Positions 29,801 through 61,940 of a stretch of DNA of 64,000 nucleotides are shown here, piece by piece; the stretch's first letter is position 1; each line of letters starts with the position of its first letter. Below the pieces are notes generated by a model. That model saw nothing but the letters and a program-made list of their open reading frames with translations. It was not told where the DNA came from and made no database searches. Source of the stretch: Polytrichum commune (taxonomy: Eukaryota > Streptophyta > Polytrichopsida > Polytrichales > Polytrichaceae); assembly GCA_950295325.1 (NCBI GenBank), contig OX485809.1, positions 1,552,001-1,616,000 of the forward strand, written 5' to 3'. A program made the position numbers and the translations under genes.

Positions 29801-30929
29801 AATAAGTTTCATATTTTCCTCTAACCCTAGCATCCGCTTATGCAGGTCACGATCCTCATCCGCGTTCGAGACTCATCTGGCTCCTCTTCGAGATACGGAG
29901 GACATGTGGCTCGTGTCTACCCTCCGTTTTGCCTCTTCCCTCCGCGATTGAAGCTCTGCTTCGATCTCCGACCAGGTTGGCGCCTTCTCTAAGTTTGAAC
30001 TCTGTGGTCATACATTTTTTCCCACCCTTGCATTAGTGACTCCTGCATATTGATACAATGGACTTAAAAAAACCTAATCACATGAAAACTTCATAGTTTA
30101 GATGTTATCAAGTTGGTTGTCAAGTCTTCTTCACTTTGGCCCACCACCGACAGCCTCTTTACCTACGCACGATTTGTCTTCAACCGCTCGGCCTCCTTCA
30201 ACTTGCGGTCCTCCGATATTAACCGAGACAATTTACCCAGTGATCCTGCCAAATATGTTTCGGCTTTGCCTTCCCTGCTTGCAATGTCTTCTTCAGTTGG
30301 TACCGCTTGATTTTTAGCTGCCCTTTCAAAATTGCATGGAAGGCTTCTTCTGTGACTCGCCCAAGACCTCCCTCGTATTCAAACGTGTTGTCCACACATT
30401 GTTTTATGTTTAATAACATGGAGGTCTTATGTACGTTATAATTGTCCTCACTAAAATCCACATCTTGTGAATGTCCCCTTAAACAACTCAACCACAATGA
30501 CCGGTTTTGGCCACAGGGATTATCTTTCATGTCTACCTTTACGGTGTACCTTTTCTTCCCGCGCTGCTCCCTCACAAATACCTCGTCTTGTTGTTGTTTT
30601 GATATCCTACTCCTCCGACTCCGTTGTTCGGATACGTAGCTCCATAGTGTCGGATCCCTCTCAGCAATTGCGCCTCCGGATGATTGGGCATGTTGTGCAC
30701 TCTGAGTTCGCAACAGTGCACGCTTCGCGGTTAGAATCTCCACCTCCAACTCCACTATTTGCACTTGCAGAGGTTTCGCAGTTCCTTTGCCACCATCGCT
30801 ATCGTCGTCGTCTGCAAGGTTGTCGACGTTCGAGGACGGAATGATCAAATCATCGATGTCGACATCCTCCTCCAAGTAGTCGTGGTTGGTGTCGTCCTCC
30901 TCGTACGTGTCCTGCGACATTCTCACACG

Positions 30930-33220
30930 TTTATGTGCATCGTTCCTATTTAATGTTTGGGAAGGAGGTTTGGGCGCCTTGAACTTTGAGGCTCCACGTG
31001 GATGATTTGATCATGTTGGCAAGCAATGTAATTCAATTAAAGTGGCTCAAATTGGAGCTCAAGAAGGAATTTGAGATAAGTGTAGTGACAATTTTTTAAT
31101 TTTCTTAGTTGGAACAATATTTAAATATAAAAAATGTTTTTTTGAGCTTCACAAGTAGAAACAAATAGGTATGAAAGGGGCTATGGACTGAGAGTTTAGA
31201 AAGTAACTGAAAAGAGGTTATGTCTTGATTCTAGGAAGTTTCAGGGGCATATACATGCCATTGTCTGGTAGGAAATGGAGAGTTTTTTTGGAGAGTATAA
31301 CTTCGGGTAGATAAAGAAGGCGATAGGGAGAGATTTTGAAGAATTGTTAACTCGTTTCTGAGAAAGAATTGTAGAAATACCGAGGAGCGATTCCTCGAAG
31401 TTATTAGGATAGAATCTAAGCCATATCTTGATTGTCTTTTACCATCTAGGGTGTGTAATTGGTTAGGCCATAGCCTGTGCAGAGGAATTTTACATGTCGG
31501 CCGATATCTGGATATATGAATTTCAAAATTTATTGAAGTCTGAATTTCTCGTGGTCGAATTGCTACAAGTACAGGCTTTAAATCTTGAGTCATAAATGTC
31601 AACGAGAGGGAATGTATCCCAAGTCAATAGGTTGCGTGTATGAGTGTATGTGCATATGTTGTCTTCTCTCAAGAACTCGTTGAACTAAGCATGGATAATT
31701 TTAGATTATGATTTTTGGGAACCCGATTCCACTATAATTGCTTCATGAAGGCTGAACGAATGAGGATGTTAAATAAACCAAAAATTGAGACGTTTGCCTG
31801 AATGATAAGTGAAAGATGAGAAGGGAGAAGATACAAATTATGTTCAGGGACCATAGTTTGTCTGAATTAATAATTGCTAAGCCGAGAGTTGGTGTGGCTT
31901 CGTGTAGGAATTCTTCTATTATTCTAGGAATAATTACTGCAGAGATTGCAGGGATTGCTTGATTGCAAATGAGTATCTTTGTTATCAGATATGGAACTGC
32001 CTGATAGTGTTGACTGATACCTATGAGATAAATAAAGAGGCAATCATCTGAATTGGACAGTGTTCACTTTGAGAGAGAGAAAATCGATGTGCAATTAGGC
32101 AACTGACTGAGATAAGTTATCATTGTAAGGCAGGGCTTAAGCACTGAAATAATGTGGCAATCGGCTGAGAGGACACAAGGTCTTGATTTCATATGCAGGG
32201 CTAGGGGCTGGGAAACTAGAAGGGTCGAGACCATAGCATGCGTAACCTCACGGGAGGAACATCGGCTCAATTGATTGACAGAAACCGAACAATCATTGCG
32301 TAGGCCATAGACTCTAAAAGGATTCTTGGATCAGTTTTCAGAAGATGAAAAGACTTGGTCGTTGCTAGCTTAGTAGGTAAGTGGGACATATATGGTTTGC
32401 AACTCAAATAAATTTTATACGGACATAAGATGATCTAAGAGTAATCCTAAAATTGAATAATTGCAAGTGCTTGGCAATAGTCTTGTGATTGATCAATGAA
32501 GTGAACTTATGAACGACATCGGTTGAAATAATAATTTACTAAATTGAAACCTTAATTACAAATTTAAAGGGATAAAGTGATGAACCATATATTATGAAAG
32601 ATAGATATATATACGTGGTTTGGCTTATTGATGCAATCCGAGGATGCTATAGTTACTCTGGCCAAGACTGGGTAAGGACTATTGCTGGACAACATAACTT
32701 TAAAAAATAGAATAAATCAAAGAATCTCGACAATCCTAAAAGGATGACAACACTGCAAATTTCAAGTTGCACTAAAAGGGTTAATTAAATGCCAGATTAT
32801 TGACGATACCAAAGTGCCCTTGGCTTTGGTAAGCAAGACTTAAATGAGATACTTTTGCAAAAGACTATTGTCGATGGCGAGACCTATGCTTGTGCACCAC
32901 ACCTAGTCCAATTAAAATGAACTCACTGCCAGACTATTGCCTGGAAAATTAGAGTGAGGTGAGAGACTGCCATGATTGTATGCACTAACACGGAGAGATT
33001 ATTCCAGTTTTTATCCCTTACTCATAAACCAAGTGTTAGTCTTAATCTAAAATAAAGTGTGATAACCTTGTGTTTCTTTTAATAAATGTTATCTAAGACA
33101 CCTAGACGAAATACAAATCACCTTTTAAGTCTTCTCTAAGTGTTTCCCTGGGTTTGTTCTTAACCAAAATCTAAACCACAATAAGTGATCTCGGAGAATT
33201 ACATTATTGAATAAAGTGGA
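30930..33220. other. Unassigned 2.3-kb segment
   Basis: No domain recognised. The - strand frame 31231-31602 is not recognisable. Short phrases such as CAGACTATTGCC and GACTATTGTC recur at about 32680, 32793, 32863 and 32932 at irregular spacing. Confidence 0.3.
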
Positions 33221-58160: not shown

Positions 58161-58802
58161 GCCTTGTCCGACATGGCAACCTTAGCTGAAACAGTGTTCC
58201 ATGAGTGCCCGTGTTTGTCTCATCGATTGTATTTAGTGGCTTTGTCCCTGTCCCACAAGCAAGGGCATGCAAGAGGGGGGGTTGGTCCAAACATAGGATG
58301 GATGTGGATGAAACCTTGGTCTATTTCATCCACAAGAATTAAATAGGTACCCCACTTGCTCATTGACGTTGAATTTTGGATTGACTTTAAGTTCAGCTAT
58401 AGTGCTCGAACATATTACCTTCGATATTTTGTTGGTTGAATTTGGAGAACTTCTCATGGACTTATACATTGATTTTCAAAACTAAGTCAATTAACAAAAT
58501 AATATATTTTGGGAAGCCGTATAATGGAAGAGTATTTATCTTTTTGTCAAATCATAAATCATGTCAACATCGCAACCAAGCTGACTATTATCCCTCTAAC
58601 GTTCAGCTTGAGTACTATAGCAACAAGAGAAAATCGCATTTCAAATGAACTTAGGTCAATTGACTCAGTTTTAGAAAAAATTTCATCAGTCACCTTCGAT
58701 TGCAAGAATAAGTTAATGGTGGTCGCCTAGGGTTCTTCCTCTCACTTATGGGTAGTAGTGTGATCTCTTAAAGTATTTTCTCTGACAAGGTTTTCTTTAC
58801 CC

Positions 58803-59779
58803 ATGAGAGCATTGCCAAAGGAGAAGAGGTTGAATGCTATAGGCATGTTGCAGCATGGGCGTAGCACATGTGAAGTCTTAAATTTGTTAGGTGTCTCTCA
58901 ATCTACATGCTTTGAGATCCGTAGAGAGTGTGTTCTTTATGTGTAGCCTTCAAGAGAAGGGCACCCAACAAGCATCACCATTGCTCAATGATGAGTCTGC
59001 ATGATAATGTTGTAGACGTGAGGAATGCTTTGAGTGAGCATTTGAATGTGGTAGTGAGCACCACCACAATGAGACCTGCACTTCCTGAAGCAGGTTTTGG
59101 GTCATCAGAGAAGCAAAAAAAAATTGTTGCTCACAGTCAAGAATGTGCATTGTAGGTTGAAATTTGCTCAACATCATCAAGATTGGACTATCCATGATTG
59201 GTATAGAATGATTTCTAGTGATGAGACTATATCAATCAATTTTAGTTTGATAGTCCCACTTGGTGTTGGGTGAGGGATGGAGACTCTCAAGTACAAGCTC
59301 ATCAAGTGAATCAGACAGTTAAATATGAAGATGGTGCAATTTTTGTGTGGGATTGTATGACTTCCCGTGGCATGGGTTACATGTGCAAGATAGAAGGGCA
59401 GGTGACACACACTTTATATCTTAGCGTTCTTCAAGATGGGGCCATGAGGACAATTCAATGGTGTTGTTTCAACCCTTCTCATGTCATGTTTTAGCATGAT
59501 AATGATCTTAAACATACTGCAAAATTGGTCAAAGCAATGATTGTCAATGCAAAATCTAGATATACTTACTTGGCCACCTCAATCACATGACCTAAATCCA
59601 ATTGAGTATGCGTGGGCACCTGTGAAACAAAAAAAATGAGTATCCAACACTAGCCAAAAGAGTGTGTGCAAGCTCCTTTCCATTTCATCAATTCTAACCA
59701 ATGTCAAGAGTTCTATCATAGCATGCCCAATCTTATCCAAGTTATTTTAGCTTCTAAAGGAGGGTGGACAAATTATTGA
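58803..59779 (+). pseudogene. Tc1-like (DD34E) transposase relic
   Basis: Near full length (about 325 codons) with several frame breaks. Starts at ATG 58803: RALPKEKRLNAIGMLQHGRS and STCEVLNLLGVSQSTCFEIR, a helix-turn-helix of Tc1 type. Then RLKFAQHHQDWTIHDWYRMI followed by SSDET (first catalytic D at 59220), YEDGAIFVWDCMTSRGMGYM, a HDNDLKHTAKLV block (second D at 59498), WPPQSHDLNPIEYAWAPVK (catalytic E), and a C-terminal CQEFYHSMPNLIQVILASKG to a stop at 59777-59779. Allowing one extra base in between, D and E are separated by 34 residues, the Tc1 signature rather than the DD39D of plant mariner-like elements. Frameshifts and stops make it inactive. TIRs are not established; a candidate right end (ATACACTG) lies near 59948. 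Confidence 0.85.
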
Positions 59780-61940
59780 TCTATCAGTAGATGTAGGTGA
59801 CAATATAGTTATGGGAGTTGATTGTGTCTACCCTCTTTCTTTATTTCAAATTTTAAGACTAAATTTGATTTGAGATGTTAAAATCGATTTGCATAAGCGT
59901 GTAGTGAGAGTTTTCTATTAGTGAATATACACTGAAGTCCTTTTTCCAATTGACATATCAAAATTATTCGAAAAATCCCCAACATTTTCATGTTGCTTGT
60001 ATTTATTTTGATATTTTTTCTGAAATTTCAAGGCATAAAGTTCAACGAACTAACACATGAAAATCTCCCATGAGAACAGTTGGATTCCAATTTGCATGTT
60101 TCACAATAAAGATAATGTCCTGTATCGTATGTTAACCCCCAACTTGGGGCACACTTTCATGTGCTAGTGCATGCATGTCACTAGATGACCATAAAAATGA
60201 CCCTCATTCACATATGAATTCACTATTTTTGGTCTTGAAATTACACATGACAACGTCCTATTCCTCACACCACCAAAAAAAACCCTACTAGATTGGCTCA
60301 CTAAACCAGCATAGCATTATTCAACTGATGAATTGTGTTCAATTGTTGTGACTTCAGATGTAGTCTAATGCAGTGAAATTTTGGCATCTAGATACTTTAT
60401 TCTCGGATCTACTACGAGATCCATGAACACAACTCATGAGCTGAGTAATATCATGACCCATTCAAACATTTCATGATGGATCACTTAGAATAACTCAACA
60501 AATCTTCATAATATACCTCTCATCACAAGCTATTATAGATATATGCAATTGTCACTACCAACATGACAATGAATTCCTAGTCAAGAGATTCATCAACAAT
60601 AGTCGAATTTGTTTTGGATCGGCCCTTGAATAGACAACTTATACAAACCTTAGAATTAGGAAGATGCCTAGTACATGATAGGTAATGGACCCAAAGACCT
60701 ATTTCTTCCAAATATGCACTAAACCCCCTCAAACCCATCGACATGTATGGCCTCATCTATTATCATCATGCAAGCAACCACATATTCACAAATTGGGCAT
60801 TCCTAGCCATCGTAAAGGAACAAACACAAAGAAACATCATCATTGATTTTCCGTTCATATCATATCGTACCTTCAAACATACATGAGAACAATCCCCCAC
60901 AAACAATGAAAGATGACTCCAATGTTGTCATTGGCGTGAATTATGGTGTTGCTTCAATTACAAGCTTGTTTAAGTTTATATGTAATCTTGAAACAGACAA
61001 TACAAGAACTAGAGACCCTGCAATGACTACTACCACCTTTTGGAGGTGAACATCTTGAACGAATGCAGACAAGTCAGCTAGCACCTATCTCCCCCAAAGG
61101 CAAAGCTCATAGGTTTCCACATGGTTGGTTGAAACTAGCTAGTTTTTCCAAATATCCCCATTGTGTTTGGATGGATCGTAGGTAATTGGATGCACCATAG
61201 ATCGAGTGCTAGGAAGGCCACCCATATGAGGTCTCAATCCGGGTACTCATGTGACTTAACCTCGAAGTTCGCATGGGACCATGTTAACGCCTTCGCTTTA
61301 AGCCACCCTTTACGAAACAATGTATTCCTATGACTCGTACCATGCATATGCTCTTCCACTAAAACAAAACAAAACAAAGAACTAGGATGGTAATAAGAAC
61401 ATGTTGTGGTAATGATATTTGAAGTGCTTGACCTCGTACATAAGCATACCATCAAAGACATCCTAGACCTCAAACTTCCAACTTCATGCATAAAATTCAT
61501 TCCTCATGGCCAATCTTCAACATAGAACAATAATTATCACATGTATATCATCCTTGATAAGTTGAATTGCACTTAACATATCACTATAATAAAGTAAAAT
61601 GTGGTAAAATCTTCGCATCCCATCGTCTCCCCCACCCCTCGTGTAGTCAAACATTCTAGTAGAGGATCCCATGGCAAATACCACAACTTCATTGAAACTC
61701 AAAAAGAATAAATGCCTTCCAACAAGATGTTTGTCTACTCCATGGAAGAATACAACCTGCAGTAACTTGCTTGATACCAAGCCTAACCTACAACCAATTG
61801 CTTTGAGCCACTCCTTAACTATGCACATTAGGATGATCATCTTTGTTCCTCAACATTCATATTAGTCATGTATTGTAGTCGGCACTTTCCTCTTTCACGC
61901 TCCAAAACGTTCTACTACAACAACAACAAAAAGCCATGAG
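59780..61940. other. Intergenic after the Tc1-like relic, no recognised gene
   Basis: 59780-59950 is probably the 3' flank of the Tc1-like element. Frames at 61234-61840 (-) have no recognisable domain. Confidence 0.35.

Follow-up and report, generated by a model that had tools for sequence, protein, structure and literature searches.

A broken Tc1-type transposase gene

Within the window, as we call the whole 64,000-nucleotide stretch of DNA analyzed here, positions 58803–59779 of the + strand hold a broken Tc1-type transposase gene, recognized from three-frame translation, Pfam matches, alignment to a relative, and further copies in the same genome. We are highly confident that it belongs to a copy of a Tc1 (DD34E) cut-and-paste DNA transposon that is dead and truncated at its 3' end, and that this element resides in the genome of a host that is most likely a moss. 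The original prediction of a Tc1-like DD34E relic at 58803–59779 in a plant genome is borne out by the motifs, their spacing, and the copies elsewhere in the genome. This interval is the coding part only; the whole element spans about 58465–59806.

Judged by its sequence, the gene is a decayed DD34E transposase. An ATG and the start of a helix-turn-helix are read at 58803 (MRALPKEKRLN...), and the predicted SDET, HDNDxKHTA, and WPPQSxDLNPIE blocks are all present in the three-frame translation. In this translation, the first catalytic D codon (SDET) lies at 59220–59222 and the second (HDND, in HDNDLKHTAK) at 59498–59500, both on the + strand, while the catalytic E codon (LNPIE, in WPPQSHDLNPIE) lies at 59604–59606 (+ strand), 34 residues past the second D, as had been claimed. 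The same spacing of 34 was counted in all 25 copies in which a script read the motif, window copy included, among 29 Tc1-type copies (no motif was read in L007, L024, L026, and L027); in L002 and L006, the catalytic E is replaced by V.

The E in LNPIE sets the window copy apart from DD34D mariners, whose third catalytic residue is D. One might still suppose that the relic is a plant mariner-like element (PlantMar) of the DD39D type misread through a frameshift. PlantMar elements belong to the same superfamily and have plant hosts, but they carry DD39D instead of DD34E, and the accessible part of PMC7325037 records them from flowering plants and from a small number of oomycetes, with none reported in bryophytes. 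The motif spacing of 34 with E, not 39 with D, in the window copy, together with the spacing of 34 in 24 other Tc1-type copies, led us to reject this identity, to which we attach almost no probability.

The reading frame is more broken than the "one extra base" originally proposed. Alignment to 257 residues of a relative revealed five frameshifts and two in-frame stops, and alignment to sister copies additionally revealed short deletions. Four of the seven translated pieces of the window copy matched Pfam at E ≤ 1, every one below the curated cut-off. A likely first helix-turn-helix at 58803–58925 (+ strand) matched HTH_23 (E = 0.0017, 18.6 bits, cut-off 24.6; E = 0.011 for a longer overlapping piece), the end part of a likely second one at 59118–59183 (+ strand) matched positions 51–72 of 72 of HTH_Tnp_Tc3_2 (E = 0.0092, 16.7 bits, cut-off 31.5), and DDE_3 matched at E = 6.4e-5. 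In the relative L010, HTH_Tnp_Tc3_2 is above its cut-off (46.8 vs. 31.5 bits) and HTH_23 is below (20.5 vs. 24.6).

Copies across the genome

The proposed search for further copies in the same genome was productive. A DNA search of the window's own genome (408 Mb, 64 contigs), in which the best 40 of 187 candidates were scored, the window copy included, gave 39 further places with 76–83% DNA identity along the whole query or a part of it. The best sister has 81% identity over query bases 8–1019 of 1021 (E about 1e-298), and chance similarity is excluded by this value and by the number of scored places. These places, hereafter family A, lie on all seven large contigs (C1–C7, making up 406 of the 408 Mb, with the window on C7) and on the small contigs C32 and C59. 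The copies on C32 and C59 score the same as copies on C2 and C1, of which they may be duplicates.

The anatomy and divergence of family A were read from the eight best-scoring of the 40 copies (L001–L008), a sample that leans towards low divergence. Their mean pairwise Kimura two-parameter distance (K2P) over the main part of the element is 0.180 (28 pairs), and the window copy differs from its seven sisters by 0.184–0.207. At the 1% per million years of PMC4054914, a rate uncalibrated for this genome, this would correspond to an age of roughly 9 million years per copy. With such divergence, family A has probably long been inactive.

Element ends and target site

In the alignment of the eight copies, the family A end consists of TA followed by the terminal inverted repeat, TACACTGACTCTCAAAACTGAGTCAA, with its inverse at the other end. 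Genome-wide, this pattern occurs 128 times with at most three mismatches (53 forward and 75 reverse), vs. 0 and 0 in the control. End patterns located both ends in six of the eight copies, the exceptions being the window copy and L003; the patterns reported neither end of L003, and the alignment shows its left end, one base short. TA stands on both sides in five of the six two-ended copies (L005 has TG on the left), and their lengths from TA to TA are 1546, 1581, 1584, 1588, 1588, and 1819 bp.

A search for terminal inverted repeats on both sides of the window copy had been suggested, and only the left one was recovered. The TA target dinucleotide and left repeat (TACATTGATTTTCAAAACTAAGTCAA) occupy 58465–58490 on the + strand, with four mismatches to the family end, and the right repeat is lost beyond about 59806. 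Similarity to the sisters stops at a right break at 59806/59807 (+ strand), with blastn alignments of all seven sisters to the window ending between 59803 and 59811. By the coordinates of the six two-ended sisters, the window copy is without 161–206 bp, including the right inverted repeat, and because this repeat is absent, the target duplication is unreadable. In a search with the right flank, for which the best 40 of 340 candidates were scored, no other match crossed the break; the other matches cover stretches of at most about 175 bp only, some 500 bp from the break.

On the left, the element adjoins 41 bp at 58424–58464 (+ strand) that belong to a dispersed repeat of the host, its apparent insertion target. 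A left-flank search found 38 other places, part of which do not cover this piece, and eight were fetched. In these eight copies, 37–39 of the 41 bases are alike, the repeat continues without the element in all eight, and the insertion point reads TA in five. The eight repeat copies (L093–L100) are only about 70–82% alike among themselves, yet they match the window at 37–39 of 41 bases in the core; 58424–58464 may be a section of this unnamed repeat that is conserved for a function.

Residence in a most likely moss genome

LEAFY genes form a family that occurs in land plants and in some algae related to them. Its C-terminal domain has six matches in the genome, two of them on the window's contig C7, and no match in 14 control genomes. 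For one copy on C1 (L015), the best PDB match is 4bhk ("FLORICAULA/LEAFY HOMOLOG 1", 218.7 bits), which we take to be a Physcomitrium protein, followed by PROTEIN LEAFY 2vy1, presumably Arabidopsis LEAFY (171.1 bits), and three further chains (168.5, 166.2, and 111.9 bits). The host is most likely a moss, and family A is an old resident family of it because of the genome-wide copies, the 128 ends, and the LEAFY matches.

The same observations bear on whether the relic reached the window through an assembly misjoin or as contaminant DNA, a chimera that the original prediction had kept as an alternative. Since copies lie on all seven large contigs, besides the two small ones, and the terminal repeat occurs 128 times vs. 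none in the control, we consider this very unlikely, with a probability close to nil. Further, the element sits in a repeat of which this genome has other, scattered copies, and on a contig that carries two LEAFY matches.

Related families in the same genome

A DDE_3 search of the genome (150 of 457 candidates scored, 149 matches) placed family A among several others, which were named from fetched copies. Family A comprises L001–L008, the window copy included. Family B1 (L010, L012, L013, L016, and L017) includes two copies free of stops and frameshifts (L010 and L016), its larger pieces having 90–93% protein identity to L010. B2 (L019–L021) has one intact copy (L019) and two with one stop each, all copies of B3 (L022, L023, and L025–L028) have stops or frameshifts, and both copies of B4 (L018 and L024) are broken. 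Family C (L011 and L029–L032) is marked by the motif EDGAPVH or EDGAPLH, and L029 and L030 are intact. The fetched copies of family D (L009 and L033–L035) are IS630-like.

Coding K2P means are 0.055 for B1 (five copies), 0.027 for B2 (three), and 0.125 for B3 (six), and one C pair (L030/L031) differs by 0.030. Compared with the mean of 0.180 in family A, the lower values indicate that family A is the old member, and that B1, B2, and C have younger ones. The C elements L030 (C1:3572500–3575100) and L031 (C2:34857300–34859900) have long, nearly identical inverted repeats, and on this ground and their K2P they are younger than family A.

An inverted-repeat script, run over 25 loci, detected 13 with a pair, that of L020 being an inner one, and no pair in the six B3 copies. 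It gave the end TACAGTGACTGTCAAAACTGAGTAC for B1, TACAATGACTTCAAGAAATGAGTCAATG with TACAGTGACTTCAAGAAATGAGTCTATG for B2, and TACAGTAGGG for C (L030 and L032). CAGT ends are found in B1, in B2 (at one or both ends), and in C (L030 and L032), and CAGTGA also stands in place of CACTGA at a few of the family A end places listed. A, B1, and B2 have a common end core, TACA[C/G]TGACT...A.AA.TGAGT.

Similarity searches and phylogenetic placement

L010 matched the Sleeping Beauty transposase SB100X (PDB 5cr4) at E = 3.7e-46, vs. 2.6e-6 at best for Mos1, and a profile built from seven of this genome's transposases, taken from families B and C, matched SB100X at 2.7e-70. SB100X is a reconstructed fish element (PMC4054914) with the DD34E catalytic domain.

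The main tree had 31 rows and 229 columns. It contained 26 of the 33 translated copies (8 of A, 3 of B1, 3 of B2, 4 of B3, 2 of B4, 4 of C, and 2 of D), SB100X, two bacterial IS630 rows, and two rows filed as bacterial metagenome-assembled genomes (MAGs; L036 and L037). The Tc1 rows, with SB100X and the two MAG rows, were split from the two IS630 and two D rows at 100/100, and the D copies clustered with bacterial IS630 (86/75 with L042). Family A formed a clade at 100/100, and each of B1–B4 and C reached at least 99/at least 96. A joined B2+B3 at 80/89, and A+B joined SB100X at 63/33. The test was borderline for A+B+C held as a single clade (p = 0.0495) and did not reject a grouping of C with SB100X (p = 0.104). 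Given these p values and the support of 63/33, we make no call between one and two Tc1 lineages. The tree is also silent on any donor, because SB100X is its sole animal row, and indeed its sole non-moss eukaryote, and it has no fungal Tc1 row.

In a first tree, five of 45 loci from bacterial or archaeal records, found by scanning genome contigs, had been added, and L036, L037, and L040 were then counted as IS630. A and B1–B4 grouped at 91/98, and the rows then labelled IS630 did not fall on one side of a branch; L040, whose letters look to be in the wrong frame, was left out of the main tree. L036 (JAGXRD010000121.1) and L037 (VBAU01000189.1) are short contigs whose transposases fall with the Tc1 rows in the tree. 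Each forms a long branch, and L037 covers 37% of the columns; they are perhaps eukaryotic DNA in bacterial MAG bins.

A bacterial IS630-type element would likewise have a DDE motif, and 217 plasmid records weakly match L010, the 10 listed having 23–30% identity and several being annotated as IS630. Viral contig scans found no relative, and a scan of a phage collection gave one weak match only. Against an IS630 identity stand the SB100X match of L010 and the 100/100 split in the tree, in which two bacterial IS630 rows were available; on these two grounds, we rejected it and judge it exceedingly improbable.

Several points weigh against the relic being a resident Tc1 element of a moss. Both of its helix-turn-helix matches fall under the Pfam cut-off, its right inverted repeat is missing, and the insertion point reads CA, not TA, in three of the eight target-repeat copies. 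The family A end is CACTGA and not the CAGT of the plant Tc1-like elements in PMC4054914. The grouping of A with B1–B4, a branch separate from SB100X, has support of 90/98, which is under the tool's star, and a grouping of A with SB100X was not rejected (p = 0.133). Finally, the identification of the moss is based on a single gene family and on the presumed species of a PDB chain.

Relation to known plant elements

DD34E Tc1 elements were unreported from plants before 2014, when PpTc1 (1,584 bp, 85 copies) and PpTc2 (1,709 bp, 22 copies) were described from the moss Physcomitrella patens (Liu and Yang 2014, PMC4054914). The surprise at a DD34E copy in plant DNA, on which the original prediction dwelt, falls away because of this publication. 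An "overlooked plant Tc1 lineage" had also been offered as an explanation; in substance, this is the published P. patens case (PMC4054914). Tc1-like sequences, mostly fragments, were also described from nine angiosperms including rice (PMC4054914), whereas the accessible part of PMC7466625 gives no significant matches in Marchantia, Arabidopsis, and rice, and thus disagrees on rice. Among the literature matches listed, we found no report of Tc1 in a moss other than P. patens.

Family A resembles PpTc1 and PpTc2 in its most likely moss host, DD34E motif, TA target, and inverted repeats, and four of its six two-ended copies (1,581–1,588 bp) are close in length to PpTc1. By description, the families differ in age, the PpTc families being young (about 2% from consensus) and family A old, and in their ends, with CAGT and 33-bp repeats in PpTc and CACTGA in family A.

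PpTc1 and PpTc2 were placed nearer to fungal elements in 2020, and horizontal transfer from fungi to P. patens was proposed, in the accessible part of PMC7466625. The window could hold one trace of a horizontal transfer that happened recently, with a fungus or an animal as donor, and Tc1 elements are generally known to move between hosts. However, family A is old and many-copied, with its mean K2P of 0.180 and 40 scored places, and its genome also contains B1 and B2, whose inverted repeats are similar. A recent transfer is therefore improbable, although somewhat less so than the misjoin, mariner, or IS630 explanations; a horizontal transfer at another time, such as an old one into mosses, may have occurred.

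Proposed history and significance

We propose the following history for the resident Tc1 copy. A full copy was about 1.58 kb long. It had TA as its target, was bounded by inverted repeats some 25 bp in length, and carried one transposase gene; the product had helix-turn-helix units, probably two of them, and a DD34E domain of the RNase H-like type. By what is known of the family, a live transposase would bind the inverted repeats, excise the element, and reinsert it at a new TA. The window copy inserted inside an older dispersed repeat, as seen on its left side only; frameshifts and stops then built up in it, and the right end was lost. Younger B and C relatives in the same genome keep open frames.

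The coexistence of A and B1–B4, which are grouped without full support, and lineage C fits long residence and diversification. More tentatively, and with rather more doubt than belief, A and B1–B4 may form an old self-sustaining moss Tc1 clade that diverged into several subfamilies within mosses in the course of tens of millions of years, A having shifted to a CACT end. If this were true, it would speak against the Tc1 elements of mosses having come singly and recently from fungi. As a single finding, the window copy is a plain transposon relic. What is new is family A, an old family of a kind known from a moss and set apart from PpTc by description, and the several age classes of Tc1 families in a second moss genome provide material for weighing residence against repeated transfer.

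Minor observations

The longest listed stop-to-stop frame of the window lies at 30219–31010 on the − strand (263 amino acids), of which 262 amino acids had no Pfam match at E 0.01.

The IS630-like DDE family D (L009, identical to L081, at G000:C2:13107008–13108063; L033–L035; and L082–L092) gave 127 matches, with 115 of 453 candidates scored. Where the Tc1 copies read LNPIE, it has LNxAE, and its ends in L009 and L034 resemble TACTCCTTTGGTAAGATGA. The catalytic E is missing in 10 of the 12 IS630-like copies read, and L009 has an open frame of 352 amino acids without the first D and the E; L082 is the only copy that keeps the two D residues and the E.
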